Shown in pieces: positions 12,845-49,295 of a DNA stretch of 64,000 nt. A program made the translations under genes and the position numbers. Where the stretch lies: the NCBI GenBank assembly GCA_947455215.1, contig CANGNA010000013.1:16069-80068 (forward strand), given 5' to 3'. Numbering within the stretch: the stretch's first letter is position 1; the number at the start of each line of letters is the position of its first letter. Under the pieces are notes generated by a model that was not told the origin of the DNA, did no database searches, and saw nothing but the letters and a program-made list of their open reading frames with translations. This stretch comes from Chitinophagaceae bacterium (GTDB lineage: Bacteria > Bacteroidota > Bacteroidia > Chitinophagales > Chitinophagaceae).

Positions 12845-13282
12845 TCAGTAATGGTTATGCCTTTTAGGGTTGCTGTTCCAGCTTATAGCATCGCCATCCG
12901 GCGGCTGTGCTGCACTTGCGGTATCGGTATAGGGCCAGCCATAGGGGCTTACGCGTTCTTCCCCGATCTCTGTTAATAGTTTAATAGCATCCTGGTATGC
13001 TGTGCGGTACACTGACTGCTCTATACCAGTGGCAGACAGGCGGATGATATGCCATACCGCAATGTCTTTTACCAGGCGCTGCAGCAACGGATCGGGGCGG
13101 GCAGGTGGTGTACTTTCTGTGCCAAATAGTTGCAGCAAATCGTAGCGGGACAGGTAGAGCATCGCCTCGCTTTCAGCGGCCTGTATGGCCTCTGTAGTTA
13201 TGCTGTCATCATTGCGGGTGATCTCGGCGATCACTTCTGCATATATGTGTGTCTTCAGGTCGGTTGGGGTGATTAGGGACAT
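12845..13282 (-). CDS. DUF1320 / Mu gp36-like phage protein
   Basis: 145 aa; MSLITPTDLKTHIYAEVIAEITRNDDSITTEAIQAAESEAMLYLSRYDLLQLFG... typical gp36 N-terminus. Confidence 0.75.
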   Translation of the reverse strand: MSLITPTDLKTHIYAEVIAEITRNDDSITTEAIQAAESEAMLYLSRYDLLQLFGTESTPPARPDPLLQRLVKDIAVWHIIRLSATGIEQSVYRTAYQDAIKLLTEIGEERVSPYGWPYTDTASAAQPPDGDAISWNSNPKRHNHY

Positions 13283-14136: not shown

Positions 14137-15648
14137 TTAATTGAGCGACTGATGATTGCGCAGCAGTGCGCCCACCTCCATATCACGCAGCAGATCCAGG
14201 TTGGTGCGCTCACCGAAAATATATATGGCACCTTCTACAGCGTCGGGGCCATCATCGTGCGAGCGGCTGCCGGGGCCAAAGGCCAGGAACTGCTGCTCCA
14301 GCCGCTGCATGTGCGGGTTGTTGCGTTCCTGCTCATTAAGGAACAGCTGGCCGTTGCGGTTCAGCGGCTCCAGCAGCAACTCTATGCGCGCATATTTGTT
14401 GGTCTTCTTACGGTTATCGGGCTGTACGCAAAGCCTGACACCGCGCTTGCGGGCTTCGTTGTTTACCTGATCTATAAGGGTATGCTGCATAAATACCTGC
14501 TCCATATAGAACCTGCAAGGCACAGGCAGCCGGCTTGCGATATCTATGTGCCACTGTATCATTTGGGCAATGGTGGTCTGCTCCAGGAAGCAGGCAATGA
14601 TATGGAATTCGTCCTGCCACTTACCTACCAACACAGTGGCCTTAAAGTCGCCCTCATCGGAATAGGAAGGGTCGGTATAGCAAACAAGGCCATCGTATTC
14701 ATGTATGTCTGGCAGGTCTTTCCAACTCACCTGTTTGAACACGGCCCCTTCGGAAACCGGGTTGTTGAAATATTCCTTCAGCATAGAGGCATGGCTTTTC
14801 TGCTTCAGCACACGGGCTATATGCTCTTCGGTGTTCTTTTCCGGCCATGACGACAAGCCATCATCGTTGCGGATGTTGACGATGCCTGCGTGATCGGCAA
14901 ATTGCTGCGCGCGGGCCATGCAGCTGTCGTGGGCGATCAGGTTGCCACAGAAAATGATGGTGGTGGGCTGCGACACGGAGCGGGTGCCTATAGCGGCCTC
15001 TTCTATCCAGCGCCATTTCTTACGCACAATATCGCCATTCAGGCAATCGGCATCGGTGTCTATATCGTCGAAGAGCAGGATATCGGGCCGGGCCTCCTCG
15101 TTGCGGGCACCACGCGGGCTCTGGCCTACGCCCAGCGCGCGGAATGCAGCGCCGGAGCGGGTGATGAACTCGGCAGCCTGCCAGCTGCCCGACTGCACCT
15201 GCTGGCCATAATCGTGCAGCAACAGTTCGTTACACTCCAGGTTGGTTTTGTAGGGCATCAGCAGTCGGGTGGCATTGTCGAGGCTGTTGCTGATGAGGAG
15301 CGCATATTTCTTTTTCACCCGGGCGTTATCTGCCGGATGGCCAACAAGCGTGAGGTACAGTACCTCCAGCATGGTACGCGTGCTTTTGGCCAGCTCGCGG
15401 CTCCAGATGCGTACCTCGTAAAATTCGGTGTTAGCTATTACCCGTTGCGTAGCATCCTTGTGGAACTGTGCGGGCGAAGCGGTGCAATATTGCTTGAAAT
15501 AGTAGCTGAACCATTGCTCGGGATCGGCCTCCAGGCGCTGCCTGCGGGCTTCTTTGATCTCGGTGGGCTCATTAGGGTCTACGTCGGCGGGCGAGAGGAA
15601 TATACTGCTGAATTGGCCCCAGCTTTCGAGGGCTTGTTTGCTGGTCAT
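14137..15648 (-). CDS. phage terminase large subunit
   Basis: 503 aa; W-SRELAKSTRTMLEV (Walker-like), PDILLFDDIDTDADC, CYTDPSYSDEGDFKATVLVGK, DDGPDAVEGAI nuclease motif. Confidence 0.9.
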   Translation of the reverse strand: MTSKQALESWGQFSSIFLSPADVDPNEPTEIKEARRQRLEADPEQWFSYYFKQYCTASPAQFHKDATQRVIANTEFYEVRIWSRELAKSTRTMLEVLYLTLVGHPADNARVKKKYALLISNSLDNATRLLMPYKTNLECNELLLHDYGQQVQSGSWQAAEFITRSGAAFRALGVGQSPRGARNEEARPDILLFDDIDTDADCLNGDIVRKKWRWIEEAAIGTRSVSQPTTIIFCGNLIAHDSCMARAQQFADHAGIVNIRNDDGLSSWPEKNTEEHIARVLKQKSHASMLKEYFNNPVSEGAVFKQVSWKDLPDIHEYDGLVCYTDPSYSDEGDFKATVLVGKWQDEFHIIACFLEQTTIAQMIQWHIDIASRLPVPCRFYMEQVFMQHTLIDQVNNEARKRGVRLCVQPDNRKKTNKYARIELLLEPLNRNGQLFLNEQERNNPHMQRLEQQFLAFGPGSRSHDDGPDAVEGAIYIFGERTNLDLLRDMEVGALLRNHQSLN

Positions 15649-15687: not shown

Positions 15688-16131
15688 TCAGGCTACTTTA
15701 GCCTCATCGGCCAGGAAATCGCCGAAGGCAGCGCAAACCTTGTGCGACAGTTCTTTATCGCGCGGGCGCAGCCACAGGCAGAATTTGCGGCCTACATCGT
15801 TGATGGTGCCGAGATCAGTACTGGTATCGAGGTTGCGGATGCTGGCGGTATATTTGGTCATCAGCTCTACATCTTTCATGTTGGGGTCTGCTGCTGCGCG
15901 TATCTTTTCGCTCAGCTTGGCCAGCATATCATAGAGGATGGTCATCTGGTGGCGCTTGCTGGTGAGCAGGCCATTGCGCAGGTTGCCCCAGCTGCCCTGT
16001 CCGATCCAGTCGCGGATGGCATTTGCGGGGATATCTGTTTCTTTAGCTATCTGGTCGGGCTCTTTGAACTCTACTGCGTAAAGGTAGCGGGCCAGCGATC
16101 GGTTGAGGTCGGTATGTAATTTGTCTTCCAT
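15688..16131 (-). CDS. phage terminase small subunit-like (Mu gp27-type)
   Basis: MEDKLHTDLNRSLARYLYAVEFKEPDQIAKETDIPANAIRDWIGQGSWGNLRNGLL...; HTH-like N-terminus, immediately upstream of large terminase. Start taken at 16131 (ORF track 16179). Confidence 0.7.
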   Translation of the reverse strand: MEDKLHTDLNRSLARYLYAVEFKEPDQIAKETDIPANAIRDWIGQGSWGNLRNGLLTSKRHQMTILYDMLAKLSEKIRAAADPNMKDVELMTKYTASIRNLDTSTDLGTINDVGRKFCLWLRPRDKELSHKVCAAFGDFLADEAKVA

Positions 16132-16135
16132 GACC

Positions 16136-16143
16136 CAAAGGTG
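16136..16143 (-). promoter_or_regulatory. -7-like element CACCTTTG of the leftward structural operon
   Basis: Read on minus strand; exactly 27 bp from the end of the shared element, same spacing as CATCTTTG at 20825-20832. Confidence 0.55.
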
Positions 16144-16170
16144 AGCAGAGAAAAAATACCGGGCCCGGCA

Positions 16171-16246
16171 AAAAAGCATGATGCTATCAAAAACGTAGCA
16201 TGATGCACCGCATAGGGGGCATCATGCCACGCCATTTTGTGGATAA
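16171..16246 (-). promoter_or_regulatory. shared regulatory element, left copy (51 bp perfect core 16195-16245)
   Basis: Reverse complement of 20722-20797: core TATCCACAAAATGGCGTGGCATGATGCCCCCTATGCGGTGCATCATGCTAC; includes DnaA box TTATCCACA (minus strand 16238-16246) and GCATGATGC/GCATCATGC sites at 16176-16184, 16198-16206, 16219-16227. Confidence 0.9.
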
Positions 16247-16357
16247 GTGCCGGCAACTGCTTTAACACCAAACAACAACAAATACGATAGCAAATAAATA
16301 TCTGCCGAAGATGCCGTGCATGAGTTTTTTCTTGCATAATAAGGAAAAACGGGGCAT

Positions 16358-16388
16358 ACCGTTGGTGAACAAAAGCGACCGTTGGTGA
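16358..16388 (+). repeat. direct repeat ACCGTTGGTGA x2 at 20-bp spacing
   Basis: 11-mers at 16358-16368 and 16378-16388 upstream of the NHL/T9SS gene; candidate regulator site. Confidence 0.7.
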
Positions 16389-16418
16389 GAAAAAAGCATA
16401 AATTATGACACGGGTATA

Positions 16419-16426
16419 TACCTTTG
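16419..16426 (+). promoter_or_regulatory. Bacteroidota -7 element TACCTTTG
   Basis: Exact TAnnTTTG, 26 nt upstream of ATG at 16452. Confidence 0.5.
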
Positions 16427-16451
16427 GCGTTCCACCTAAAAATCGGGTACT

Positions 16452-19400
16452 ATGAAGAAGATATCTGCGCTTATAGCAACATTCATTTTATTGCAGGTAA
16501 CCAGCTGGGCACAGCCAGGCCATTTGGTGAAATTGTTTGGTGGTCCTGCGTATGCTGGAGTTACTCCTGTGGAATATGCACCGGATACTTTGGTGAAGTT
16601 CTCCAACGTGACGTGTTTCCATAAAGACACTGCCGGCAACTACTTTGTTGCCGACTTTGGCAGAACAGGGTTTGGCTACCGGATACGGAAGATAGAGGCG
16701 GCAACCCACCAGGTATATACAATAGCAGGTAACGGCGCATCGGGATATACGGGCGATGGTGGCCCGGCGGTATTGGCCGCATTAACTAATGTGACCACCA
16801 TGACCACAGATCATTCGGGCAATCTTTTAATTGTTGATAATGGCAACCTGAGAAAGATAAACCTGGCCACCAATATTATTACCACCCTGGCACCGGAGGG
16901 TTATTTCGGGATCAACGGACTGTATGTAGATGACTGGGACAATATATTTTATACATCTCAGTTTAGCATGTATAAACTGCCTGCCGGTGGCGGGCCGCGC
17001 ACGGTTGTGTTGAACACCTATGGCGTTAATGGTTTTTCCGGCGATGGTGGCCCGGCGGCGATGGCGCATATGGGCAAAGCAGGGGCTATAACCGGAGACG
17101 GGCATCATAATCTTTTTGTGATAGATAGCGGTAACCACAAAGTAAGAAAGATAGACGCTGCAGGCATAATAACAACTATAGCCGGCGATGGTACAGACTA
17201 CTATCATGGTGACGGTGGCCCCGCACTAAGTGCAGGGATGCGTTGGACAAGAGCAGGTGCGGGAATGCTGAAAACTGATACCGCAGGCAATGTATATGTA
17301 GCCTGCGAGACACCATTGTTCCCCTATGTAATAAGGAAGATAGATGCAGCCGGCAGGATAACAAAAGTGGCGTTTACGGTAACAGATTCGACCGGGTGGG
17401 TAACCAGCCCGGAAACCCCCGGTGGCTATTACGCTGTTGAGTTTCAATTGGCGAGCGATGGTTCGGTGCTGGTACACGACGCGTACAGCGTGTACAAACT
17501 CACCAATATGTGGGCAGGCATTACCGCGCTTGACATTCGCGATACCATAGTAACACCGCCCTGCACGATGCCTGTGATGAAAATGGCCATACATGGCACC
17601 ATAGCTGGTACACCGGCCCCCGGAGACTCTGCCAGGGTAGCTATATACTACAAAACAGACAGTGTGCACCAGGTAACACTGCCCTATGACAGGCATATTG
17701 ATGGCGTGACAGGCGACACCACCTATACCTTCGGCAGCACCGGCTACGTTATAGATTCGTTTGCGTATAACTGGCCGGGCATACATTATCCCTTTGTTAC
17801 ACTATCTGTGTTGGGAGGATATGAGGATGCTGAACGACTGCCCGCCATCAACGCGGTAAGCAGCTGTAATAACAGCTATAAGCTCATACAGGTAAGCAGA
17901 GTACAAGACACGATACTAACACCTCCTTGTGTATTTCCGGCAGTGATGAAAAGAACGCTTACCGGCACGATACAGTCGAGTTTTATGACAGTGCAGGATA
18001 CGCTGTACGTAAAATTTGATAATGACGACAGCACAATGACTGTCGCAAGATTGCCGATAGACATCAGCGATTATGAGATAAGGCCGCAAGACTGGCCAAC
18101 GGAGGTGGATAGTACCGACACATTCTATCATTATTCATACACTTACTATCATAATTATAACCCAAGGCCGCTAGACTATTCTAATCCATCTGTGGAGCTT
18201 AGCGGTCCTTATTACAGTGGTAATTTACAACTAAGGGTAAACTCCGGACTTGGCGACTATTACGGAGGAGAGTTGTGGGTGCCCCAGATGAACCCATGGA
18301 TCGTAAGCACAGATATTTTATGGGGTGCGCTGGCCGTGCCGGCATGCGATACATCTATTGTGCAGATGGATGCCATCATGCATCATTTGGCAGGGCCGTG
18401 TGCTAATCCGCTGCCCTTTAATGGCAGGATAAATATTAGTGGTACATTGCAGGGAGGTGCTGCACGATTGTCCACCATCCCGATACACGTGAACTTTGGT
18501 GACGGGTCGGACACGTTCATCCGCATCAATAATATCTGGACAGATGGTATGGGCAGGTTTAATTACAGTGTGCCGGAATTCCGCCACCTGTACCTAACTG
18601 CAGGTACTTATTTCCTGTATATAACATTAGACACAGCAGTGGCGGTGCTGGATTACAATAGCACAGCCTCGGCCGTTACACTAACAAATGACTGCTCATC
18701 AGCAAGTGGTACCTTCTTTATAGATGCTAACCACAACTGCGTGGCCGATGCCGGCGAGATAAGACTGGGCAGCTGGCCATTTATAGTAGTGAATAATACC
18801 ACCCACGATACTACCAACTATTGGTGCGACCAGTATGGCAACTACAACGTAGCGCTGTCTGGCACCGACAACTATACCATCATATCTACCCACCAGAACT
18901 ACTATGATGGTACCAGCGTGTACGATTCGCTGACACCAACATGCCCTGCCAGTGGGGTGTACCATGTTACAGCTGCTACAGGTACATCGTTCACCCAGAA
19001 TTTTGGCTTTGAATGCTCGGGTATTGGCGGTGCAGTAGACATGAACATATCCGGCTTTGGCTGGGGTTTTGTGCCGGGCGACACAGGCGTGATATCGATA
19101 TGGGGCAGTAATGAGTGGGGCTATATGTGCGACACCCTGGCATCGACAGTAACGCTGATCAAAGACAGCAGGCTGGCCTATGTGGGTATGTGGAATGGCC
19201 CGTCACCATCATCGGTAAGCGGTGATACGCTAACGTGGCATTTTTCTACAGCGGCAGGCCTGCTGGACTTTAGCGCCAATGTAAAGGTAGCATGCGCAAC
19301 CACGGCTAGTATGGGCGATACACTGCACAATATGCTGATGATAACGCCAACAGCATTGTCCGACCCTTACCTGGCCAATAACCAGTATAGCTGGAGCGAA

Positions 19401-20558
19401 CCGGTGCGCACATCGTGGGATCCTAACGAGAAGGAAGTATCGCCCAAAGGCTACGGAGCGGAAGGATATATAGAAAACGGCACAGCGCTGAGCTACATGG
19501 TGCATTTCCAGAACACCGGCACGGCACGTGCAAGGCATATAACAGTAGTAGATACACTAAGTGCATCGCTGGACCTGAGCACACTGCAGCTGACCAATGC
19601 CAGTGCACAGGTGCAGCTGATACAGGCCGGCAATAATGTGATACGGTTCCGCTTTACGGACATCAACCTGCCCGATAGCGCCAGTGATCCTGAAGGTAGC
19701 AAGGGTTATGTATCCTTCAACATACTGCCGAAGGATGACCTGGCAGCGGGCACACAGATAAAAAACCATGCAGGTATATACTTCGACTATAACCCGCCTG
19801 TATACACCAATGAGACCATCAACACGATAGAAGATGAACTGGCTCCGCTGGAAGGCCCTGCAACGGTATGTACCGGAGGCACGATAACACTTAGCGCCAA
19901 CATAGCCGGTGGTATATGGCACGCCGCCAACGGACACACATCTGTAACCGATGGTATAGTGACAGGTACAACAGAAGGGGTAGACACAGTGTACTATACT
20001 GTTTATGGTGATAAAGTAGCCTACATGGTGATAGAAGTAAACAACACTGCCGATGCAGGTAGCATTGCCGGTGTAGACACGGTATGCGAGGGATCGCAAC
20101 TGTTCCTGTCGGCCACTGTAAGCGGCGGTGCATGGAGCAGTACTAACACCGGCATCATATCAGTAAGCACATCGGGCATGGTTACGGCTGCAGCACCGGG
20201 TTCGGCGGCTGTACATTACATCGTATCGGGCACGTGTGGCACAGATACGGCCACCCATGGTATGTATGTGATACCTGTAGATGAATGTAACAGCACGGGT
20301 GTAGCAGGCATTAGCCATCCGCAGATAGCCATCTACCCCAACCCATCATCGGGTACGTTTGTAGTAGACATGCAGCAGCCGGTGAGCGATGCAACCATAA
20401 CTATTACCGATATATCGGGCAAGGTGTTGCTGGTAGTACATCCGCAGGCAGGTCAGCAGCAAGTGCAGGTATCGCTGGGCAACCTGGCCTCCGGCACGTA
20501 TATGATAAAGGTGGAAGCCGATGGCCGGCAGTACAGGGATAAGCTGGTGCTGTGGTAG
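16452..20558 (+). CDS. large NHL-repeat / Ig-like surface protein with T9SS type A sorting domain
   Basis: 1368 aa; signal peptide; repeated TIAGNGASGYTGDGGPA-type NHL motifs; WDPNEKEVSPKGYG... conserved region; Ig-like repeats; C-terminal IAIYPNPSSGTFVVDMQQ...ASGTYMIKVEADGRQYRDKLVLW. Confidence 0.93.
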   Translation: MKKISALIATFILLQVTSWAQPGHLVKLFGGPAYAGVTPVEYAPDTLVKFSNVTCFHKDTAGNYFVADFGRTGFGYRIRKIEAATHQVYTIAGNGASGYTGDGGPAVLAALTNVTTMTTDHSGNLLIVDNGNLRKINLATNIITTLAPEGYFGINGLYVDDWDNIFYTSQFSMYKLPAGGGPRTVVLNTYGVNGFSGDGGPAAMAHMGKAGAITGDGHHNLFVIDSGNHKVRKIDAAGIITTIAGDGTDYYHGDGGPALSAGMRWTRAGAGMLKTDTAGNVYVACETPLFPYVIRKIDAAGRITKVAFTVTDSTGWVTSPETPGGYYAVEFQLASDGSVLVHDAYSVYKLTNMWAGITALDIRDTIVTPPCTMPVMKMAIHGTIAGTPAPGDSARVAIYYKTDSVHQVTLPYDRHIDGVTGDTTYTFGSTGYVIDSFAYNWPGIHYPFVTLSVLGGYEDAERLPAINAVSSCNNSYKLIQVSRVQDTILTPPCVFPAVMKRTLTGTIQSSFMTVQDTLYVKFDNDDSTMTVARLPIDISDYEIRPQDWPTEVDSTDTFYHYSYTYYHNYNPRPLDYSNPSVELSGPYYSGNLQLRVNSGLGDYYGGELWVPQMNPWIVSTDILWGALAVPACDTSIVQMDAIMHHLAGPCANPLPFNGRINISGTLQGGAARLSTIPIHVNFGDGSDTFIRINNIWTDGMGRFNYSVPEFRHLYLTAGTYFLYITLDTAVAVLDYNSTASAVTLTNDCSSASGTFFIDANHNCVADAGEIRLGSWPFIVVNNTTHDTTNYWCDQYGNYNVALSGTDNYTIISTHQNYYDGTSVYDSLTPTCPASGVYHVTAATGTSFTQNFGFECSGIGGAVDMNISGFGWGFVPGDTGVISIWGSNEWGYMCDTLASTVTLIKDSRLAYVGMWNGPSPSSVSGDTLTWHFSTAAGLLDFSANVKVACATTASMGDTLHNMLMITPTALSDPYLANNQYSWSEPVRTSWDPNEKEVSPKGYGAEGYIENGTALSYMVHFQNTGTARARHITVVDTLSASLDLSTLQLTNASAQVQLIQAGNNVIRFRFTDINLPDSASDPEGSKGYVSFNILPKDDLAAGTQIKNHAGIYFDYNPPVYTNETINTIEDELAPLEGPATVCTGGTITLSANIAGGIWHAANGHTSVTDGIVTGTTEGVDTVYYTVYGDKVAYMVIEVNNTADAGSIAGVDTVCEGSQLFLSATVSGGAWSSTNTGIISVSTSGMVTAAAPGSAAVHYIVSGTCGTDTATHGMYVIPVDECNSTGVAGISHPQIAIYPNPSSGTFVVDMQQPVSDATITITDISGKVLLVVHPQAGQQQVQVSLGNLASGTYMIKVEADGRQYRDKLVLW

Positions 20559-20582
20559 GCAGCTGAAAAGAGAAATTTTTGC

Positions 20583-20610
20583 AAAAAGGAGGGCACTGCT
20601 CTCCTTTTTT
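20583..20610 (+). terminator. Rho-independent terminator after NHL/T9SS gene
   Basis: AAAAAGGAG-N9-CTCCTTTTT then T-run. Confidence 0.8.
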
Positions 20611-20721
20611 TTGTGCCAAAAACAAGTCAAAAATGGCCATTTTTTCGTACCAGCTTTTTTCGGCGGACAGAAAGATTTTTTTGCAAGTGTAAAAGCAACA
20701 TTGCAAAATAGTTGGCGGAAG

Positions 20722-20797
20722 ATATCCACAAAATGGCGTGGCATGATGCCCCCTATGCGGTGCATCATGCTACTAAAATCGTAGTATCATGCTTTTT
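20722..20797 (+). promoter_or_regulatory. shared regulatory element, right copy (51 bp perfect core 20723-20773)
   Basis: Inverted copy of 16171-16246; ATATCCACA at 20722-20730; GCATGATGC 20741-20749, GCATCATGC 20762-20770, GTATCATGC 20784-20792. Confidence 0.9.
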
Positions 20798-20824
20798 CGA
20801 TTTGCCTGGTTTTGATATCCGTTT

Positions 20825-20832
20825 CATCTTTG
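20825..20832 (+). promoter_or_regulatory. -7-like element CATCTTTG of the rightward structural operon
   Basis: 27 bp downstream of the shared element; ~25 nt upstream of ATG at 20858. Confidence 0.55.
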
Positions 20833-20857: not shown

Positions 20858-21844
20858 ATGACAGAGAAATTCAAGAAGATCGACAGACAATTCATCCTAT
20901 CAGACAGCTCGGTAAATGTATATGGTTTCCGCCTGCTCACCTCGGGCTACCAGCTGGATGCCTATGGCAAAAACCCTATAGGCTACTATATGCACCAACG
21001 CGAAAGCGGCATTGCACTGAAGTGGGACAATCTGCGTGTAGAAGGCGATACTATAGTAGGTACACCGGTCATAAACCTGAGCAATGCACGCGGCGAGCAA
21101 ACCTGCGCCGAGGTGGAGAACGGCTTTCTTAATGCAGCATCGGTAGGTCATATAGTAGTGCTGGAATACAGCACCGAGCCTGAGCTGATGTTGCCGGGGC
21201 AAACAGGCCCTACCATCACCAAATGGTATAACAAGGAATGTAGCCTGGTGGATATTCCCGGCAACAGCAATTCGCTCTCCACCTTATACGATGCACAGGA
21301 GAACCAGATCAACCTGGTAGATATAGGTGTAGCCATGCCAACGCTCGACCTGATGCCTAATGTATTGGGCGACATAAAGCAGGCGCTGCAACTGAATGCC
21401 GAAGATGACATGCCGGCGGTACTGACCACTATCCGCGACCTGCGGGCGAAGACAGAACTGCTGGCCGCGGAGCACACCACGCTGCAGCAAAGCAACACCC
21501 GGTTGCAGCAACAATTGGAAGGCTTGCAGCAGGCAACCGCCAGGACGGAGATCACACTAATGCTGGACCGTGCCATAGAAGACAAAAAGATAACCATAGC
21601 GCTGCGCAACAGGCTGGCAGCAGACTATGCAGATAATGCTTGTGCCCTGAAGGAACTGCTTGCTGCAATGCCCGCGTACCGGTCGGTAAGCGAAATGCTG
21701 CAACAGGCGCAAGACAATGCACAACTGCTGTGGACATGGGATGACTATGAACATAACGACCCCACAGGTAATAAACTGAAAGAGCTGCGCGCCAACGATC
21801 CGATCCGCTACAAAGCACTCTTCGACGCCAAATTCGCGGCCTAA
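20858..21844 (+). CDS. prohead protease-scaffold-like fusion
   Basis: 328 aa; N-terminal phage protease-like (KWDNLRVEGDTIVGTPVINLSN...) and C-terminal coiled coil (TELLAAEHTTLQQSNTRLQQQLEGLQQ); directly precedes capsid gene. Confidence 0.65.
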   Translation: MTEKFKKIDRQFILSDSSVNVYGFRLLTSGYQLDAYGKNPIGYYMHQRESGIALKWDNLRVEGDTIVGTPVINLSNARGEQTCAEVENGFLNAASVGHIVVLEYSTEPELMLPGQTGPTITKWYNKECSLVDIPGNSNSLSTLYDAQENQINLVDIGVAMPTLDLMPNVLGDIKQALQLNAEDDMPAVLTTIRDLRAKTELLAAEHTTLQQSNTRLQQQLEGLQQATARTEITLMLDRAIEDKKITIALRNRLAADYADNACALKELLAAMPAYRSVSEMLQQAQDNAQLLWTWDDYEHNDPTGNKLKELRANDPIRYKALFDAKFAA

Positions 21845-21992: not shown

Positions 21993-22907
21993 ATGGCAAT
22001 TCAAAAAGAGATCTGGCAAGATCACGTAGAGGGCAACCTCTTTAAAAACAACGAATTCTTACTGGCATCAGTGGATGCAGGACAGTTCGTATTACAAGGT
22101 AAGGTAGTACACATACCGCAGGCAGGCGTGTTACCATCGGTGGTCAAGAACAGGTCGTCGCTGCCCGCAACGGTGGTAACCCGCACCGACTCCGACATCA
22201 CGTATTCGCTGGATGAGTACACCTCTGATCCTATACTGATACCGCATGCCGAGACGCTGGAGCTGAGCTACAACAAGCGCGAAAGTGTATTATCTGAACA
22301 CGAAGCATCACTGCGCCAGACAATAGCCGACAACATCCTGGTATCGTGGGCGCCCACAGTAGCCGGCAATATCATCCGCACCACCGGCGATGCCGTAACA
22401 GCCCACCTGGACAGCGCTACAGGCAACAGGAAGAAGCTGATGCCTAACGACCTGAAAGCAGCACAACTGATGCTGAACAAGCAGAACGTGCCTATGGAAG
22501 GCCGCCATGCGTTGCTGAGTGCAGATATGTTCCAGCAGCTTACAGATACACTGAGTGTAACTGAGTACAGGGACTTCAGTATGGCCTATAACATCAAGGA
22601 TGGTATACTGGGCAGGCTCTATGGTTTCAACATCATGATGCGTAGCGCGGTAGTGAGTTATACCAACGACACCACCCCTGCCATCAAGGCTTATGGTGCT
22701 GCTGCCGCCGCTGATGACAACGACGCGATACTGTGCTGGCAGAGCGATTGCCTGGAGCGCGCGGTAGGCGCGGTGAAGTTTTTCGAGCGCATAGACGACC
22801 CTACTTACTATGGCAATGTGTACAGCCTGAGTGTGCGTATGGGTGGCCGCAAGCGCCGTGCCGACAGTAAGGGCATAGTAGCCATAGTGCAAGGCGCGGC
22901 TGCATAG
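21993..22907 (+). CDS. phage major capsid protein
   Basis: 304 aa; capsid-like MAIQKEIWQDHVEGNLFKNNEFLLASVDAGQFVLQGKVVHIPQAG...GILGRLYGFNIMMRS...SLSVRMGGRKRRADSKGIVAIVQ. Confidence 0.85.
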   Translation: MAIQKEIWQDHVEGNLFKNNEFLLASVDAGQFVLQGKVVHIPQAGVLPSVVKNRSSLPATVVTRTDSDITYSLDEYTSDPILIPHAETLELSYNKRESVLSEHEASLRQTIADNILVSWAPTVAGNIIRTTGDAVTAHLDSATGNRKKLMPNDLKAAQLMLNKQNVPMEGRHALLSADMFQQLTDTLSVTEYRDFSMAYNIKDGILGRLYGFNIMMRSAVVSYTNDTTPAIKAYGAAAAADDNDAILCWQSDCLERAVGAVKFFERIDDPTYYGNVYSLSVRMGGRKRRADSKGIVAIVQGAAA

Positions 22908-22953: not shown

Positions 22954-23229
22954 ATGCTGGCAGAAATAAAAGCCTGGATATTGATAGCGGTGGCCGGTGT
23001 AATGGCAACCATATTAGGCTATATCATAAAAATGGTGACGGCACAGGTCATCCGCCGTCTCGACGACATAGTGCAGGAGCTGAAACAACTGACACATACC
23101 ACCACTATACAGAATGAGCAGATAAAGGGCCTGCAGGAGCAGGAAGCCATTACCCGCCGCCGCATCTATAAACTCGGCCTGCGCATACGCAATGTAGAGT
23201 TCAAAATACTGCAAAACGACAATCAATAA
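22954..23229 (+). CDS. small membrane-anchored coiled-coil protein (holin/spanin-like position)
   Basis: 91 aa, one N-terminal TM helix plus coiled coil; between capsid and endolysin. Confidence 0.5.
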   Translation: MLAEIKAWILIAVAGVMATILGYIIKMVTAQVIRRLDDIVQELKQLTHTTTIQNEQIKGLQEQEAITRRRIYKLGLRIRNVEFKILQNDNQ

Positions 23230-23255
23230 ACGATCACCCTAAAAACAACATCAAC

Positions 23256-23690
23256 ATGTTCTGTTCAAAGATCAACACGAAGATCAGGCAATTGCTGCGC
23301 CAGTTCGACAGCCTGCTTGAAAACAATATCGACACCGCTCTGCAGATCACCACGCAGCTAAAGGCGCTCCTGTCCTCATCTGTAGCCGACCTGCTTACCG
23401 CAGTGATACCTGGCAACATCGATGATATCATCCGCAAGCAGCTTGTCTATTCGCTGGATAAAGCAATAGAAGCACTGGCAATAGCCAACACCTGTAAGGA
23501 CTTTAAAAACATCAACGACAAGCTGAAGTGCTTCGCCATGCAATTGTCGCTGAAGGAGCCGCACCTGCAGGATGCTATACTGCAAAAGCTGGCCAGTCTG
23601 CTGGCGGGAGAACTGGATGGTAAACGCCTGAAACAAAGCATCTACGACCTGTATACACAGGCCAAATACACCACCGCTAAAGACATCTAA
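23256..23690 (+). CDS. hypothetical phage-cluster protein
   Basis: 144 aa helical ORF in tight operon. Confidence 0.6.
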   Translation: MFCSKINTKIRQLLRQFDSLLENNIDTALQITTQLKALLSSSVADLLTAVIPGNIDDIIRKQLVYSLDKAIEALAIANTCKDFKNINDKLKCFAMQLSLKEPHLQDAILQKLASLLAGELDGKRLKQSIYDLYTQAKYTTAKDI

Positions 23691-23694
23691 ACAC

Positions 23695-24213
23695 ATGGCT
23701 ATACAAGAAACGACACCGCTAAGGCTGCGGGCGCTGGAGGTTGCCATTACACAACTGGGCCAGCAGGAAGAGCCTGCAGGTAGCAATCGTGGCCCCATGG
23801 TAGATAAGTACCTGCGATCGGCAGGGCTAAACCCCGGGTATGCCTGGTGCCAGGCATTTGTATACTGGTGTTATGCTACTGCCGCAGCGGCCACAGGCAC
23901 AAAATGCCCGGTGATAAGAACGGCAGGCGTACGGGATTGCTGGAACAAAACCCCGCTATCGCAGCGGTTGTCACGTAAAGAAGCCGTCAGAGATACCACG
24001 ACCATCAAACCGGGCTACCAGTTCATTATGCTGTTTGCCGGCGGCCTCGGCCATACAGGCATAGTGGAGCGTGTAGAAGGCACTTATATCCATACCATAG
24101 AAGGCAACAGCAATAACACCGGAAGCCGGGAAGGTACCGCCGTTGTGCGCCGTATTAGAACAATAACAGATCCGGCATTGCAGGGGTTCATTATGTACGA
24201 TAGCGGGCTGTAA
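23695..24213 (+). CDS. CHAP-type peptidoglycan hydrolase (endolysin-like)
   Basis: 172 aa; LEVAITQLGQQEEPAGSNRGPMVDKYLRSAGLNPGYAWCQAFVYWCY...GLGHTGIVERVEGTYIHTIEGNSN. Confidence 0.88.
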   Translation: MAIQETTPLRLRALEVAITQLGQQEEPAGSNRGPMVDKYLRSAGLNPGYAWCQAFVYWCYATAAAATGTKCPVIRTAGVRDCWNKTPLSQRLSRKEAVRDTTTIKPGYQFIMLFAGGLGHTGIVERVEGTYIHTIEGNSNNTGSREGTAVVRRIRTITDPALQGFIMYDSGL

Positions 24214-24254
24214 CCGCAATAATTTTTGATCACAACAAAACAAAAACAAGAACA

Positions 24255-25439
24255 ATGGGTTCAGTAAATATAACATTGACCAATGGCGCACTGGGGGCCA
24301 CGCTGCAAACCAGCGATGGGGTAGCAGGGCTGGTGGTTACAGGTACTAACGTATCCGGCGGGCTACAGAATGGTATACCCGTACTACTGACAGGGCTGGC
24401 GAGTCTTGCAGAGCATGGTGTGGACGCATCGAACAATGCATTCGTATACAAGCAGGTGCAGGAATTTTATACCGAAGCAGGAGAAGGTGCGGAGCTATAC
24501 CTGATGATGGCCAAGCCGGAGCTGAATGTAGCTGCACTATCAGAATTTACCACAGAGACTGGCGTAGTGAAATTACTCAACTATGCACAAGGCAGAATAA
24601 AGCTACTGGGCGTAGTGACCAATGATGAAGCTGTGGCCACAGCAACAGGCAGCCCTATAGACAACAGCCATGGAATAAACGACGATGTGTATACGGCGAT
24701 CACCAATATGCAAACAGTAGCCGATGCTTACTTCGCAACACACAGCCCGTTTCGCGCCATAATAGGCGGCACATCTTACAACAATGATGCAGGTACCCTG
24801 ACCAATGTGAGCACCGGCGCTGTGTGCAACAGCACTGCAGTCCTTATCGGCGACACGGTAACCGGCAATGGCGCATGTGTGGGTCTGATGCTGGGCCGCC
24901 TTTCCGTAATACCTACTATGCGAAAGGTGAGCAGGGTGCGAACAGGCCCTATGAAAAATACCGCCGCATGGATAGGCAGCGCAGCCGTAGGCGCTTCTGG
25001 CGGCGAAATTGCAGCTATAGCGCGCAGGGGTTACATTACCTGGTGCACCTACCCCAATGTGTCCGGCTTCTTCTTCTCCGGCGATGATACCTGCAGCAGT
25101 ACTACCGATGATTATCATTTCTTGTCTCGCGGCAGGGTGATAGACAAAGCGCACATACTGGCGTATACCACCTTTGTGCAGGAGGTAGATGACGAAGTGC
25201 CTGTAAATGCCGATGGCACGCTCGATGCCGGCTTCTGCAAATGGCTGAGCCAGCAGATAGTGAACCAGGTGAACAATGCTATGACCATCAACAAGGAGAT
25301 AAGCAGTGTGAGCTGCTTTATAGATCCGGCACAGAATATACTCAGCACAAACAAGCTGCGCGTGATACTGCGTATAGTACCTGTGGGTTACGCAACCGAT
25401 ATAGAGATCAGCCTTGGCTTCACTAACCCGGCATTATAA
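24255..25439 (+). CDS. contractile tail sheath protein (DUF2586-like)
   Basis: 394 aa; VNITLTNGALGATLQTSDGVAGLVVTG..., C-terminal LRVILRIVPVGYATDIEISLGFTNPAL. Confidence 0.85.
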   Translation: MGSVNITLTNGALGATLQTSDGVAGLVVTGTNVSGGLQNGIPVLLTGLASLAEHGVDASNNAFVYKQVQEFYTEAGEGAELYLMMAKPELNVAALSEFTTETGVVKLLNYAQGRIKLLGVVTNDEAVATATGSPIDNSHGINDDVYTAITNMQTVADAYFATHSPFRAIIGGTSYNNDAGTLTNVSTGAVCNSTAVLIGDTVTGNGACVGLMLGRLSVIPTMRKVSRVRTGPMKNTAAWIGSAAVGASGGEIAAIARRGYITWCTYPNVSGFFFSGDDTCSSTTDDYHFLSRGRVIDKAHILAYTTFVQEVDDEVPVNADGTLDAGFCKWLSQQIVNQVNNAMTINKEISSVSCFIDPAQNILSTNKLRVILRIVPVGYATDIEISLGFTNPAL

Positions 25440-25473
25440 ATTCTAAACAATACCAAACCATAAAACGATCAAC

Positions 25474-25899
25474 ATGGCAGGAATAACATTTTTCGACAGT
25501 AAAGAATGCGAATGGGCAGATATGTCTATCCTCTTCGCAGGCACGCCGCTGGTAAAGGTGCGCGGCCTTAAATACAAGGCCTCTAAGAGCAAACAACACC
25601 TGCATGGTGCAGGCGACGAGCCGATAAGCATACAAAGCGGCAACCGCACATACGAAGGGCAGATAAAAGTACTGAAAGGTGCCCTGGACAATATGAATGA
25701 TGCGGCCCAGGCAGCCGGTGGCAACGATATCTTGGATATGGACTTCGACATAGTAGTTACCTATAAGCCTGCTCCGGGCCGCCCGCTACAAACAGACACA
25801 CTATTGGGTGTGCAGGTGAAAGATTTCGAAAAAGGCTGGGAACAGGGCGCCAAGAACATGGATATCACACTGCCCATCATTTTTATGAGCCTTAAGTAA
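25474..25899 (+). CDS. tail tube protein
   Basis: 141 aa; follows sheath; GDEPISIQSGNRTYEGQIKVLKGALDNM...DMDFDIVVTYKP typical tail tube. Confidence 0.75.
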   Translation: MAGITFFDSKECEWADMSILFAGTPLVKVRGLKYKASKSKQHLHGAGDEPISIQSGNRTYEGQIKVLKGALDNMNDAAQAAGGNDILDMDFDIVVTYKPAPGRPLQTDTLLGVQVKDFEKGWEQGAKNMDITLPIIFMSLK

Positions 25900-25924
25900 A
25901 ACAACAACAATAAACTAAAGCAAC

Positions 25925-26269
25925 ATGCAAACAATACTAACAACAACGATCGAACAACCTACCGGATTGACGGGAATGGCATCTGAAGCACAAATAGCCG
26001 AATGGAAAGCAAAACACAAGTATGGCATTTACGCACTGGAAGTGGATGGGCATATAGCCTATTTCAAAAACCCCGACCGTAACGAGCTGAACTGCGCTAT
26101 GAGCAAGGCCGACAGGGATAAGGCACTGAATGTCTTTGAAGAGCTGGCTACGCTGACGTTCATTGGTGGCAGCGAGGCTGTACTGAAAGATGACCAGATG
26201 TTCATCGGCATCAGCCAGGAACTGAAAGTAAAACTGGAAGGCAAAAAAGCTAAACTGGTAAACTTATAG
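25925..26269 (+). CDS. tail assembly chaperone-like protein
   Basis: 114 aa between tube and tape measure, GT-chaperone position. Confidence 0.6.
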   Translation: MQTILTTTIEQPTGLTGMASEAQIAEWKAKHKYGIYALEVDGHIAYFKNPDRNELNCAMSKADRDKALNVFEELATLTFIGGSEAVLKDDQMFIGISQELKVKLEGKKAKLVNL

Positions 26270-26439
26270 AGGAGTCGCGTGGTGGCCCGGAACACGACTC
26301 CTTCGGATATCTTGAAACATTGCTTGAATACCACCTGCCGGGCCTCGACCACAGGTTGCTGAGTGATGAAGCCTTTGCACAAAAGATCGCACACCTGCAC
26401 TACATACACAACCGATCTGCCCCGCCCCTTATTGAATAG
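26254..26439 (+). other. ATG-less open frame (-1 relative to 25925 ORF): candidate frameshifted chaperone extension
   Basis: Reads TGKLIEESRGGPEHDSFGYLETLLEYHLPGLDHRLLSDEAFAQKIAHLHYIHNRSAPPLIE*; open from after TAA at 26251-26253 to TAG at 26437-26439. Confidence 0.5.
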
Positions 26440-26476
26440 CTATACGTACACCAGCCCCTGTAAACCCTTATCTGAT

Positions 26477-27835
26477 ATGATGACCCTTTTAAATAGCCCG
26501 CTCCTTGAATATGCGAGCACCATTGTGGCAACTGACAACACTATCCTTGGCAATACACAGGCACTGGCAGAGCTGACAAATAAAGTAATGCAATTGTCGG
26601 GCACAATAGAAGGCGTTGCAATGCCCGCTAAACCAATTGGCCCGGCGACGATCAACTACAACAGCGCCGTTAATAAAGACGAGGACTTGTCGAAGATCAT
26701 TGGCTCTCTATTAAAAAGCGGGGGCGATGGCGGATTCGATGCCAAAGGTGAAAGTTTGAAAAGGTTGTCTGCAACGATCAGCGCTTTTGGAGCAATGAGC
26801 GATGCCATAGATGTTGCAAAAACAAGTAAGGGCATAGAAGCTATTGCTGATATTGCCAAAGCGGTTGCAGGATTTTCAGCATTGGCTAAAGAGGTAGGTG
26901 TATCAGCAGCTGCTATAGGTGTTGGATTGAAAAGCGTTTGGGACTATTCCAGGGCAGAAGTCGAATCGCACAAATTTCACCCGGACACAACAACGTTCAT
27001 GGCACCGGCAGCAATTGCGGGCAATCCTCAATTGTGGGCAATTACAGACAATGCCGCGTACACAAAGCAACTGGCGGAATGGACCAGGCAAAAACCAGCT
27101 GACCAGGTAAACAGTGAAGTAGAGCTATACGTGCAGAAATTTTTGAAGGCTGGTGGTGAATTACATTTCAGCGAGCGACTGGCCATTAATGACCAGGCAT
27201 ATATACCTGCCATAGTAGCGGCCATGAAGAGAAATCAAATTACACCTGGCCACCCGATCAAGGATATCCTCTTTGATACGCCGCAGCAGCTGCGTGATTT
27301 CCAGGCGAATGTAGACCCATTGCATGAGATCAAAACAAGGCTAAGGCCAATGCAGATTGTTCCTTTAGATAATGCGTATGGATCAAAAAATGCTGGCACC
27401 GGGCTTGGCTACGTGAAACAGGAAGAGTTTCCGCGGTTTGATTGGATGAACAGTGCGCACCGAATAGAGGCCCAGCTGAACAGTGCGGTAGAAAAGGGAC
27501 TGCAAGGGTATAGACTTTATGGCCCAACCTATGTAGGCAATTATGTACAGTCGCTGTCGACCATGTTTGGTAGTATGCCCGAAACTCAGGGTGCAGTAAA
27601 AGAAGCGCAGGCGAGGCTTACAAGAGGTTTCAGTCAGATAGACAGGGAGAAGGCTGCAAAGCAAACCGGAGACCGGAGTGAAACAACGAGCACTACAAAG
27701 ACCATCAACTTCAACCGTGCACTTATCGAGCACTTCACCATCAATGTAAAGGATGCACGCGACGGCATCAACGATTTCAAGAGAAAGGTAGAGGAGGCAT
27801 TGGTGGAAATATTGAACAGTATAAACGCAAAGTAA
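26477..27835 (+). CDS. tail tape measure-like protein (short)
   Basis: ~453 aa from MMTLLNSPLLEY; alanine-rich helical middle; between chaperone and baseplate genes. Confidence 0.65.
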   Translation: MMTLLNSPLLEYASTIVATDNTILGNTQALAELTNKVMQLSGTIEGVAMPAKPIGPATINYNSAVNKDEDLSKIIGSLLKSGGDGGFDAKGESLKRLSATISAFGAMSDAIDVAKTSKGIEAIADIAKAVAGFSALAKEVGVSAAAIGVGLKSVWDYSRAEVESHKFHPDTTTFMAPAAIAGNPQLWAITDNAAYTKQLAEWTRQKPADQVNSEVELYVQKFLKAGGELHFSERLAINDQAYIPAIVAAMKRNQITPGHPIKDILFDTPQQLRDFQANVDPLHEIKTRLRPMQIVPLDNAYGSKNAGTGLGYVKQEEFPRFDWMNSAHRIEAQLNSAVEKGLQGYRLYGPTYVGNYVQSLSTMFGSMPETQGAVKEAQARLTRGFSQIDREKAAKQTGDRSETTSTTKTINFNRALIEHFTINVKDARDGINDFKRKVEEALVEILNSINAK

Positions 27836-27836
27836 C

Positions 27837-28472
27837 ATGGCAGAATTATCTTTTAACCTCGCTGATCTTTTCGAAGAGGCCTACGGATATCGCTCGGCAG
27901 CATTCGATATGCAGTTTGACCCGGTAGCCGGCGACAGTGGCTTGCCTGGAACGCGCACTGAACAAGGCGCATTGGGATCTCCATACTACAGCCACGATGG
28001 GCTGTCTAAAGAATATTACATGCCGGTAACCATCAGCTATGAGCGGTCGGCGGGAAATGAAGGATCGGCAGGTACCGGCACTACAGACTGGGATTTGCCA
28101 CACCCTGTGATAGCGATCAACAGTCGCAAGACCATTGTGGAGACTGCACTTACCGAGCGCAGAGGCACGGTGAAAGAGCTCATCAATGTGCAGGATTACG
28201 ACATCGTCATCAAGGGATTTATCATCAATGCTACACACGAGTTTCCTGAGCAGATGGTAACCAGGCTGCGCACAATATATGAGCAGAACGAACCCCTCTC
28301 TATCAAGTGTCCGCTCACAGATATCTTCCTGGTGCGCCCCGACCGTAAGGGTAGTGATAAAGTGGTGATCAAAGAATTGAAATTCCCTGCTGTCACAGGC
28401 ATAAAGAATGTGCGGCCGTATGAACTGCACCTGGTGAGTGATGAACCTTTTAACCTTGTATCTTTCAGCTGA
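27837..28472 (+). CDS. phage baseplate/tail protein (DUF6046-like)
   Basis: 211 aa; VIAINSRKTIVETALTERRGTVKELINVQDYDIVIKGFIIN... Confidence 0.65.
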   Translation: MAELSFNLADLFEEAYGYRSAAFDMQFDPVAGDSGLPGTRTEQGALGSPYYSHDGLSKEYYMPVTISYERSAGNEGSAGTGTTDWDLPHPVIAINSRKTIVETALTERRGTVKELINVQDYDIVIKGFIINATHEFPEQMVTRLRTIYEQNEPLSIKCPLTDIFLVRPDRKGSDKVVIKELKFPAVTGIKNVRPYELHLVSDEPFNLVSFS

Positions 28473-29491
28473 TGTTTGTTTTGAATAGTGATATAACGAT
28501 CGGCAAGTTCCGGTTTAGTGGTGTGCATGATGTGCGCATAACAATGGGTATGCACAGCATTGTTTGTATGGCCTATATCCAATTGCCGGCTGTGTCGCGC
28601 ATCATTAAGAATGGCAAAGCTGTTGATGGCAGTGTTGTGACAGCAGATCAATTCACAGAGGGTGATGCGGTAACTGTAAAGCTGGGCTATAATGGCGACC
28701 TGCGAACCGAGTTCATGGGATATGTAAAACACACCGACCTGAACAAACCGCTGACCATCATCTGCGAAGGCGGTAGTTGGCTGATGCGTAGAAATAAGAT
28801 CAACCTGTCTGAGCGTTCCATATCTGTGAAACAGCTTTTGCAGAAAGCAGTAGCAGGTACTGGACTGAATGTAGTGTGCGATATAGATGTGCTGCTCAAC
28901 AACGTACAGTTGAACGGAACAGGTGTTGATATGATCAATGCGATACACCAGTATACAGATCATTCACTGACCATCTTTTTCAGCAAGCCAGATACACTGT
29001 ATTGCGGTAATCTCCGCACCAAAGCGTCGGGTAATAATGATGTGTTACAACTGGGTAAAGTGCAATACAGGAGCGGCTTCAATATTTTCTCCAACAACAA
29101 CCTGAAGCGACGCACCACCAACGATGATCCTGTAGCCATTACGTATAGCAAGAAGGAAGACTCCGGCAACATTATTACGGCAACATCTGCAGCATTTAAA
29201 AATGCAGTAAGGAAACACAGTAAGTTGCTGAACCAGGTAAAAGAAGCGGCCACACTAAAGCTGCTGGCAGAAGAAAAGGCATACAAGGACAATTACCAGG
29301 GCTTTGAAGGGAGTGTGCAAACATTCCTGGTGCCATACGTGCAACCGGGGTACCTGGCATCGCTTACCGATAACACGCTTAAGCTAAAAGAGCAAACATA
29401 CCTGGCAGAAGCAGTAACCACGCACTTTGGTGTGCATGGCGCGAGAAGAACCGTAGACCTGGGACCATTGATGGGCTTTGCAAACCAATAA
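28472..29491 (+). CDS. baseplate hub protein (gpD/late control-like)
   Basis: 339 aa; GDAVTVKLGYNGDLRTEFMGYVKHTDLNKPLTIICEGGSWLMRRNKIN hub pattern; before spike gene. Confidence 0.7.
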   Translation: MFVLNSDITIGKFRFSGVHDVRITMGMHSIVCMAYIQLPAVSRIIKNGKAVDGSVVTADQFTEGDAVTVKLGYNGDLRTEFMGYVKHTDLNKPLTIICEGGSWLMRRNKINLSERSISVKQLLQKAVAGTGLNVVCDIDVLLNNVQLNGTGVDMINAIHQYTDHSLTIFFSKPDTLYCGNLRTKASGNNDVLQLGKVQYRSGFNIFSNNNLKRRTTNDDPVAITYSKKEDSGNIITATSAAFKNAVRKHSKLLNQVKEAATLKLLAEEKAYKDNYQGFEGSVQTFLVPYVQPGYLASLTDNTLKLKEQTYLAEAVTTHFGVHGARRTVDLGPLMGFANQ

Positions 29492-30041
29492 CCTTATGAA
29501 TAAGAACACAGCTAAGATAAGCGCCGGTATACGTGCGCTACATCATCAACAACAGGAGATCATCAGCGGCAAAGTGGTGAGTATCGACACAGGTAGTGCA
29601 ACGATGACCATACGTCCTACCGGCGACGGTGAGCCGATAAAGAATGTACGGCTATCGCCGGTAGGTAGGAGTAGTGATGGATGTATCCTGTTCCCTGAAT
29701 CGAATAGTGATGTGGTGATAGCTAGCATAGATGGCCCCGGAGAATGGATACTGTTGAAGGCTGATAAGATCACCAAGGCAACTATAAAGATCGGATCAGT
29801 GAATTGCGAAGTGACCGATAGCGTCATTACGCTGAAGAACGGTAGCGTTTTACTGGAGGTGGGCAATGCACAATTCAAACTGAACACACCATCGGAAACA
29901 CTGTTCGATATACTGAATGATTTGATCTCTTATATATCTGCGCTTACTGTATCAACAAGCACAGGTCCCAGTGGTGTGCCGCTGAACATATCAGACTTTA
30001 TAACGCTCAGCACCCGGCTAAGCAATTTATTAACGCATTAA
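29490..30041 (+). CDS. baseplate spike protein (gpV-like)
   Basis: OB-fold-like GKVVSIDTGSATMTIRPTGDGEPIKNVRLSPVG... with beta-repeat region. Confidence 0.7.
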   Translation, partial: NLMNKNTAKISAGIRALHHQQQEIISGKVVSIDTGSATMTIRPTGDGEPIKNVRLSPVGRSSDGCILFPESNSDVVIASIDGPGEWILLKADKITKATIKIGSVNCEVTDSVITLKNGSVLLEVGNAQFKLNTPSETLFDILNDLISYISALTVSTSTGPSGVPLNISDFITLSTRLSNLLTH

Positions 30042-30057
30042 ACCTAACACCAAACAG

Positions 30058-30357
30058 ATGGCCAGGACAATGATGGACATCGCTCTTGAGGACGATGAAG
30101 ATGTAAGCATTAATAATGGTGACTTTCCTATTGTTGAAAGCACACTACAGCACCAGCGGCAATTGATACTGAATAACAAAGGTGACTTTAAACAGAACCC
30201 GACCATATGTGTAGGTGCCTTCACCTACTTTGATGATGAGCATATGCAAAACCTGGTGCGCGCGGTGAGCGTAGAGTTTGCGCGAGATGGCATGGATGTG
30301 CAGGAAGTAAAGATAGATGCCGACGGCACTCTGAAAAGCGAAGCCTTATACCTATAA
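30058..30357 (+). CDS. baseplate wedge protein (gp25/W-like)
   Basis: 99 aa; LEDDEDVSINNGDFPIVESTLQHQRQLILNNKGDFKQNPTICVGAFTYFDDEH. Confidence 0.65.
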   Translation: MARTMMDIALEDDEDVSINNGDFPIVESTLQHQRQLILNNKGDFKQNPTICVGAFTYFDDEHMQNLVRAVSVEFARDGMDVQEVKIDADGTLKSEALYL

Positions 30358-30367
30358 CAACAAGCAT

Positions 30368-30592
30368 ATGAACACCATAAAACCCCAACCCAACCAAAGC
30401 AGCCTTGATGTAGTGCTGACCGCATGTGGCACTATGGAAGGTACCATGCAACTGATGTTTGCCAATGGTTGCTCCGTTACAGCGGCCGTTAGCGAGGAGT
30501 ATGCTATTCCGGACACGATAGCTACCGATGCAGCCACTATGACTTATATGCGGAGCAACAATATACTGCCCGGCACTAAGGGCAGCGAGTAA
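30368..30592 (+). CDS. LysM/tail-X-like small protein
   Basis: 74 aa; QSSLDVVLTACGTMEGTMQLMFANGCSVTAAVSEEYAIP. Confidence 0.5.
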   Translation: MNTIKPQPNQSSLDVVLTACGTMEGTMQLMFANGCSVTAAVSEEYAIPDTIATDAATMTYMRSNNILPGTKGSE

Positions 30593-30624
30593 CATTTTTC
30601 TTTCCTTTTATAAAACTCCTAACC

Positions 30625-31452
30625 ATGGCAAGAACGATAGCCGAGATACAGCAATCGATAATAACGGCCAAGCAGACCGACCCTGTATTGAGCGGGCTTA
30701 CGAGTACCAGCAATGTATCTGTATGGCTGCTGTGGACCTATATTGTAGCCGTGTGCCAGTGGGTCCTTGAAACATACTTCGATGACCACAAGGCAGAGAT
30801 GGACAGCATCATAGCCACACAGCGGCCACATACGCTACAATGGTATGTTACCAGGGCCAAACAATTTCAGTATGGCGTGGCGCTGCCTTTTGAAAGCGAC
30901 ACTTATACTACGGTATCTGATGACCCTGCGGTAAGCATCATTACGTATGCTGCTGCAGTAGAGCTACCCAGTCTTATCCGCATAAAGGTGGCCACGCTAA
31001 GCGGCAGTTCGTTGGCACCATTAACGACTGTACAGCTTACGGCATTCACAGCCTATATACAGCAGATAAAAGATGCGGGCGTGCGTATGCAGATAACCAG
31101 CGGCAACCCAGATATGCTGCGACTACAACTAAAGATCTATTATGATCCACTAGTACTGAATGCCACTGGTAGCCGCATAGATGGTACTGCTACACAGCCG
31201 GTGCTGGATGCCGTGAAGAACTTTCTAAAGGCCCTGCCGTTCAATGGCTTGTTTGTACTGAACAATCTGATCGCTGCATTGCAAGCGGTTGACGGTGTTG
31301 TTATCGGCGTAATAGAATCTGCGGCGGCAACGTATGCTGCGCTGCCCTATACACCTGTGACCGTAGAGTACGCGCCAGACGCGGGTTATATGGCTGCCGA
31401 TGAAGCTTACCTGCTGGCCAATATCACCTACATTTCTCACAGCCCTATTTGA
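30625..31452 (+). CDS. baseplate J-like protein
   Basis: 275 aa; VTRAKQFQYGVALPF...VSIITYAAAVELPSLIRIKVATLSG...; precedes gpI-like gene. Confidence 0.75.
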   Translation: MARTIAEIQQSIITAKQTDPVLSGLTSTSNVSVWLLWTYIVAVCQWVLETYFDDHKAEMDSIIATQRPHTLQWYVTRAKQFQYGVALPFESDTYTTVSDDPAVSIITYAAAVELPSLIRIKVATLSGSSLAPLTTVQLTAFTAYIQQIKDAGVRMQITSGNPDMLRLQLKIYYDPLVLNATGSRIDGTATQPVLDAVKNFLKALPFNGLFVLNNLIAALQAVDGVVIGVIESAAATYAALPYTPVTVEYAPDAGYMAADEAYLLANITYISHSPI

Positions 31453-31471
31453 TGATCTACAACCAACCGCT

Positions 31472-31975: not shown

Positions 31976-31995
31976 TCAACTAAAAACAAGCATAC

Positions 31996-33362: not shown

Positions 33363-33400
33363 CTTAAATTCCTATTTGTCCCTCCTGATGTTGTAGCAGG

Positions 33401-34264: not shown

Positions 34265-34349
34265 TTAAGGCAAAAGTTAAAAGTTAAAACCTAAAGTATG
34301 GTCGTTGCTGCGATCTACGCCCGGCATAAGTGCAGCATGTATTATTTAA

Positions 34350-34376
34350 AACAGCTCCCGTAAGGAGCTGTTCTTT
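34350..34376. terminator. bidirectional-type terminator/attenuator between mreB and mreC
   Basis: AACAGCTCC-N5-GGAGCTGTT with T-rich flanks on both strands. Confidence 0.6.
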
Positions 34377-34378
34377 TA

Positions 34379-49188: not shown

Positions 49189-49273
49189 ATTGAAATAGTT
49201 ATAGGGGTAAAGATACATATAAAAAACAAAACATGATTCACATGCCCGGAGGAACATATTGCGCATAGCAACA

Positions 49274-49295
49274 ACTGCCCGGAATACCGGGCAGT
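49274..49295 (-). terminator. hairpin (possible terminator of early operon)
   Basis: ACTGCCCGG-N4-CCGGGCAGT between DUF4406-like gene and NHL gene. Confidence 0.45.

Follow-up and report, generated by a model that had tools for sequence, protein, structure and literature searches.

A Shared Three-Site Promoter Element of a Putative Gene-Transfer-Agent-Like Regulon in Chitinophagaceae

Introduction

Late promoters that depend on a dedicated activator are known from phages, with Mu C and P2 Ogr as examples. In the gene transfer agent (GTA) of Caulobacter crescentus (CcGTA), the LexA/cI-like protein RogA represses gafYZ, and GafY, which is homologous to domain IV of DnaA, has about 18–20 sites, including the GTA cluster; its binding is abolished by a change of ACTATG (PMC9632790, PMC11150451). 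In the RcGTA of Rhodobacter capsulatus, GafA carries a DnaA-like N-terminal domain that is required for activation (PMC9638019), and TerS shows no specific DNA binding (PMC6854486). No GTA of Bacteroidota was found in the open literature, and one may have been published elsewhere.

The locus described here lies in a Chitinophagaceae genome (G000), in a stretch of 64,000 nucleotides that was analysed as a whole and is called the window. Both halves of a phage-derived gene cluster are preceded by the same element, which is likely to be an activator-dependent late promoter of a GTA-like regulon that is inherited in place, with a standalone DnaA-domain-IV protein (DnaA-IV) as its likeliest activator.

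The Element and the Operons It Precedes

The cluster consists of Mu-like head-tail structural genes and a terminase, a phage origin being one of the traits by which a GTA is recognized. The left operon starts with a TerS-like DNA-binding protein (phrog_4151; 15688–16131, minus strand), contains the large terminase TerL (phrog_38; 14137–15648, minus), a Mu Gp36-like gene (12845–13282) and a Mu-type portal (PF06074; 11309–12424, minus), and extends to about 10714. The right operon starts with a Mu-like prohead protease/scaffold (20858–21844, plus), followed by the major capsid protein (phrog_267; 21993–22907, plus; 47% to the capsid of a Porphyromonas Mu-like phage) and by endolysin-like, tail sheath, tube and baseplate genes up to r15 (22954–32823, plus). 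A second Mu-like capsid, 50% identical, is encoded outside the window (contig C31, 27020–27988) and probably belongs to a separate prophage. The two halves are separated by a gene for a type IX secretion cargo-like protein of 1368 aa (16452–20558, plus). Giant DUF7619/type IX secretion proteins are thus encoded beside the cluster and also beside the control locus described below (45781–49425), and related proteins lie between the cluster halves of two relatives, G004 and G005.

The left copy of the element (16136–16246, minus) is the putative promoter/operator of the TerS-TerL-portal operon, and the right copy (20722–20832, plus) that of the protease-capsid-tail operon. Positions 16195–16245 (minus) and 20723–20773 (plus) are the same over 51/51 bp in inverted orientation, a match that arose in none of 100 dinucleotide shuffles. 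The left copy opens with the box TTATCCACA (16238–16246) and the right copy with ATATCCACA (20722–20730). Three 9-bp sites follow, which read GCATSATGC in the left copy (16176, 16198 and 16219) and lie at 20741, 20762 and 20784 in the right copy, the site at 20784 reading GTATCATGC. The -7 boxes, CACCTTTG at 16136–16143 on the left and CATCTTTG at 20825–20832 on the right, are both of the CAnCTTTG type, and one faces each half of the cluster; the distance to the -7 box is exactly 27 bp from ATCATGCTTTTT and 34 bp from the last half-site in both copies, and in the right copy ATTTG occupies a -33-like position (20800–20804). The exact inverted repeat, the three sites per copy, the equal 27-bp spacing and the orientation of the copies toward the terminase/portal and the protease/capsid/tail operons, all of which had been claimed in the original prediction, were therefore confirmed. 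An Rfam scan of the window gave Acido-Lenti-1 matches only, none of them at the element copies.

Scanning the whole genome for the element revealed six copies, namely the two in the window and one each on contigs C2, C19, C66 and C78, the latter four being full length. As far as the third site, the alignment of all six is gap-free but for a single base in the C78 copy, and a CAnCTTTG/A-like box occurs at the same distance in three of the four additional copies, the C2 copy having a poorer -7 box whose position is shifted by one base. Because the 27-bp type of spacing is kept in three of these four, the element is not a dispersed repeat devoid of that spacing. The C78 and C19 copies lie upstream of TerS-like genes that belong, as does the gene at the head of the left operon, to the phrog_4151 family; the C2 and C66 copies have promoter boxes and no evident TerS-family gene downstream.

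Constant Geometry and Changing Operator Words

The operator word of this genome found no match of comparable quality in relatives and is thus species-specific. The comparison drew on 40 named genome loci that encode a related capsid. In the Flavipsychrobacter relatives G001, G003, G004 (Flavipsychrobacter stenotrophus RB1R16), G005 and G010, a TTATCCACA-like box, an array, ATTTG and CACCTTTG occupy the corresponding positions of the protease promoter; the array, unlike that of this genome, consists of GGTAC..GTACC-like words. In G004 and G005, the array precedes both cluster halves and many further loci, and in sister species the same promoter geometry recurs before five to six solitary TerS genes, the operator word being common within each genome. 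The geometry does not change across about 25 additional genomes, in which the operator is lineage-specific. The promoters anchored at the -7 box (about 25 of protease and nine of TerS genes) share three half-sites about 21–22 bp apart and a TTTTG-like -33 box; the last half-site lies exactly 34 bp from the -7 box in nearly all promoters with a recognizable array, a descriptive tally in that the accepted half-site variants were listed after the sequences had been seen. Some genomes with the cluster (L131, L132, L134 and L138) have no recognizable operator before the protease.

The protease and TerS operators of a given genome are more alike than those of separate genomes (p = 5e-5 by permutation, and p = 0.004 when Flavipsychrobacter is left out), and the core promoters, used as a control, show no such likeness (p = 0.24). 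Twelve operators of solitary TerS genes scored a mean of 31.7 against 13.3 when compared with the protease operator of their own genome, a score reached in 0 of 20,000 permutations; one of the 12 (L223) shows no difference from its protease operator, which may be an effect of assembly. Such concerted change of operators within genomes argues for a trans-acting factor and not for copying, and recent duplication cannot explain a geometry that is retained while the operator letters change together. The earlier proposals that the element is a shared activator/operator module for both halves and that it reflects function rather than recent duplication thus gain support from the sequences of other species, where comparison of the intergenic regions of related clusters found the same geometry before both halves. 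The element is very probably a genuine regulated-promoter element of a multi-locus regulon.

A Candidate Activator in the Control Locus

Among the loci first collected, a search for Mu early proteins matched Gam and MuB solely at 50.0–52.7 kb of the window. This control locus, which is unlinked to the cluster, encodes a LexA/cI-type repressor with HTH_3 and Peptidase_S24 domains (52887–53684, plus), divergent from an operon of a MuB-like AAA ATPase (51866–52747, minus), the standalone DnaA-IV protein (Bac_DnaA_C; 50854–51321, minus), which is GafY-like and the proposed activator, a conserved 105-aa protein, p105 (50585–50902, minus), and a Mu Gam-like protein (50029–50541, minus). The order S24 repressor, MuB, DnaA-IV, p105, Gam recurs in 27 loci, single genes being undetected in a few. 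Between the repressor and MuB genes, 52748–52886 contains TTTTGACAAATCCAAATTTTGTGGAA, conserved with inverted parts in the genomes examined, which is likely to be the repressor's operator. Three matches to Acido-Lenti-1 RNA (RF01687) flank the MuB and DnaA-IV genes (49761–49805, 51411–51455 and 51542–51586, plus).

The DnaA-IV protein was found in 27 of 29 genomes with the cluster (115–176 bits) and in none of six controls of the same family, in which at most the chromosomal DnaA was matched at 20–23 bits. In an even sample of 150 genomes of the family, it is present in 8/9 genomes with a close capsid and in 3/141 others (Fisher p = 3e-10). Its model matches complexes of DnaA domain IV with DNA in a fold search, and equivalents of DnaA R399, D433 and H434 are retained, the correspondence to E. 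coli numbering having been assigned by the analyst. A DnaA domain IV that stands alone and keeps its DNA-contacting residues, as expected of the GafY type, is thus present. Operator similarity is correlated with DnaA-IV identity when capsid identity is taken into account (partial Mantel r = 0.45). Gam and p105 are also correlated with the operator (partial r 0.38–0.39), MuB and the protease not significantly; since Gam and p105 correlate as well and the four genes are linked, the test does not single out the binder. No simple code from DnaA-IV residues to operator bases was seen. Together, distribution, fold and correlation make DnaA-IV the probable activator of the element.

A Family of Solitary TerS-Like Genes

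Wherever loci of G000, G004 and G005 were examined, the elements are directed into a TerS-like gene, and two of the four additional copies in this genome, those on C78 and C19, precede solitary genes of this kind. Of 23 further genomes, 22 have 2–15 such paralogues. Cluster-type genes scattered over several loci with a shared operator, as in known GTAs, are thus present. Many solitary TerS genes have no operator and only a TATCCACA-like box. In G079 (L196–L207), about ten solitary TerS-like genes, near-identical in themselves and in their promoters, lie at unrelated sites of one genome, which suggests recent spread. Around a solitary TerS gene of G004 (L108) and one of G005 (L122), shared neighbours are found in opposite relative orientation, suggesting a local inversion or re-insertion. 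There are also orphan elements (L119, L112, L111, L121 and L123), which have promoter boxes although no gene of the family is evident downstream of them.

The array might instead be a packaging (pac-like) site that is bound by TerS, possibly with autoregulation, and not a target of DnaA-IV. Three-site arrays are known at phage packaging sites. The array precedes almost all main TerS genes and many of the solitary ones, TerS-like proteins bear an N-terminal HTH, and the main TerS diverges in step with the operator, with 34% identity between G000 and G005 (62% for TerL of the same pair) and 76% between G004 and G005. However, the array also stands before the protease operon at exactly the same distance from the -7 box, which is needless for a pac site, and solitary TerS genes without the operator exist; in addition, the TerS of the RcGTA is devoid of specific DNA binding (PMC6854486). 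A pac site is therefore unlikely, and activation by DnaA-IV is preferred. A structure model of TerS (pLDDT 69, pTM 0.38) was too weak for a fold search.

A Fixed Place in the Chromosome

The right end of the cluster adjoins mreD-mreC-mreB-carB in every genome with a readable junction, across genera, so that the cluster is inherited in place. In the window, mreB and two genes toward r15 occupy 32820–35410 (minus), MreB being identified by Pfam and MreC and MreD, which gave no Pfam or PHROG hit, by their order beside mreB. The genes between the cluster halves are host genes that depend on the clade (a DEAD-box helicase and others in other genera), and in six other genomes they include no regulator. 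The dN/dS ratio between G004 and G005 is 0.036–0.056 in genes where it could be calculated, synonymous sites being saturated in several others and no value being available for portal, MreB and MreD. Vertical inheritance at a fixed site and purifying selection, both of which mark a GTA, are thus found.

Recent integration of an ordinary Mu-like prophage, with these as its late promoters, would account for the genes and the divergent layout, which are those of Porphyromonas Mu-like phages. An ordinary active prophage was rejected for want of MuA, since PF09299, the one Pfam family used, has no hits in G000; it is absent from 15 of 16 genomes in all, although MuB and Gam are retained, and no match to the MuA of the Porphyromonas phage was found among the loci searched. 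A recent integration is further contradicted by the constant mreDCB-carB neighbour across genera, by the host genes that separate the halves and by the control locus and TerS family, which are unlinked to the cluster. Moreover, no operator was found in the intergenic DNA examined of compact relatives, namely the Porphyromonas phage and L152, which is the second and compact cluster of the genome that contains L155. This explanation is consequently very improbable, and the cluster is a conserved component of the chromosome, not a prophage. Least probable of all is a dispersed mobile promoter repeat that came to lie before these genes by chance, which would suit the two of six copies in this genome (C2 and C66) without an evident target gene nearby and the orphan copies in G004 and G005 but is already largely contradicted by the fact that in many species, whose operator letters are unrelated, the targets belong to the same gene families.

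Proposed Model

In the GTA-like regulon favoured here, a signal, probably DNA damage, would inactivate the S24 repressor and release the MuB-DnaA-IV-p105-Gam operon. DnaA-IV would then bind the asymmetric half-sites, the TATCCACA box or both, and recruit RNA polymerase, so that the packaging, head-tail and TerS genes are switched on together. The product would be a GTA-like particle, since no MuA was found and the chromosomal site is fixed; that the whole system is a GTA seems reasonably likely from these analyses. The TerS family may set the start points of host DNA packaging or adapt TerL, a packaging role that is speculation. More tentatively, the system may be an undescribed Mu-derived GTA of Bacteroidota in which DnaA-IV and the operators co-diverge and multiplying solitary TerS genes seed packaging chromosome-wide, some of them possibly spreading selfishly via the particles.

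If this model is correct, GTAs would extend to Bacteroidota and to a Mu-like ancestor, with a regulatory logic like that of alphaproteobacterial GTAs (LexA/cI-like repressor, DnaA-IV activator). Natural variants of the operator, together with the candidate regulator that matches them, would be available as a series in about 20 lineages, making co-evolution of regulator and operator specificity testable over a whole regulon. The question is also raised of why up to 15 TerS-like genes occur in one genome.

Comparison with Known Systems

In their working logic, the late promoters resemble those dependent on Mu C and P2 Ogr, the candidate activator here being a DnaA-IV protein instead. The Porphyromonas phage phage015a (BK068096), a Mu-like transposable phage, has the same divergent TerS-TerL-portal and protease-capsid-tail layout, and MuB, Gam and a repressor occur in both systems. 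It differs in having MuA, in its divergent gap of 95 bp, from which the operator is missing, and in keeping all modules together.

The RcGTA likewise combines a phage-derived cluster with ectopic loci that are activated by a protein with a DnaA-like DNA-binding domain (PMC9638019). It differs in that GafA is one fused protein, that the host bacteria are unrelated, and that its only TerS has no domain for specific DNA binding (PMC6854486).

The CcGTA shares the pairing of a LexA/cI-like repressor with a DnaA-domain-IV protein, which in the present system is a candidate activator. GafY has its targets both at the main cluster and at numerous dispersed promoters (PMC9632790, PMC11150451), and the likeness to GafY, taken from its description, lies in the DnaA-IV domain and the regulatory logic; the commonest half-site here is CTATGATAG, whose match to the GafY site, CTATG, spans five bases. 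Unlike the CcGTA, the present system has a Mu-like ancestor and contractile-tail genes, a repressor divergent from the MuB-DnaA-IV-p105-Gam operon, a split cluster and a TerS family, and its operator is a triple site beside the promoter, whereas that of the CcGTA is one distant site.
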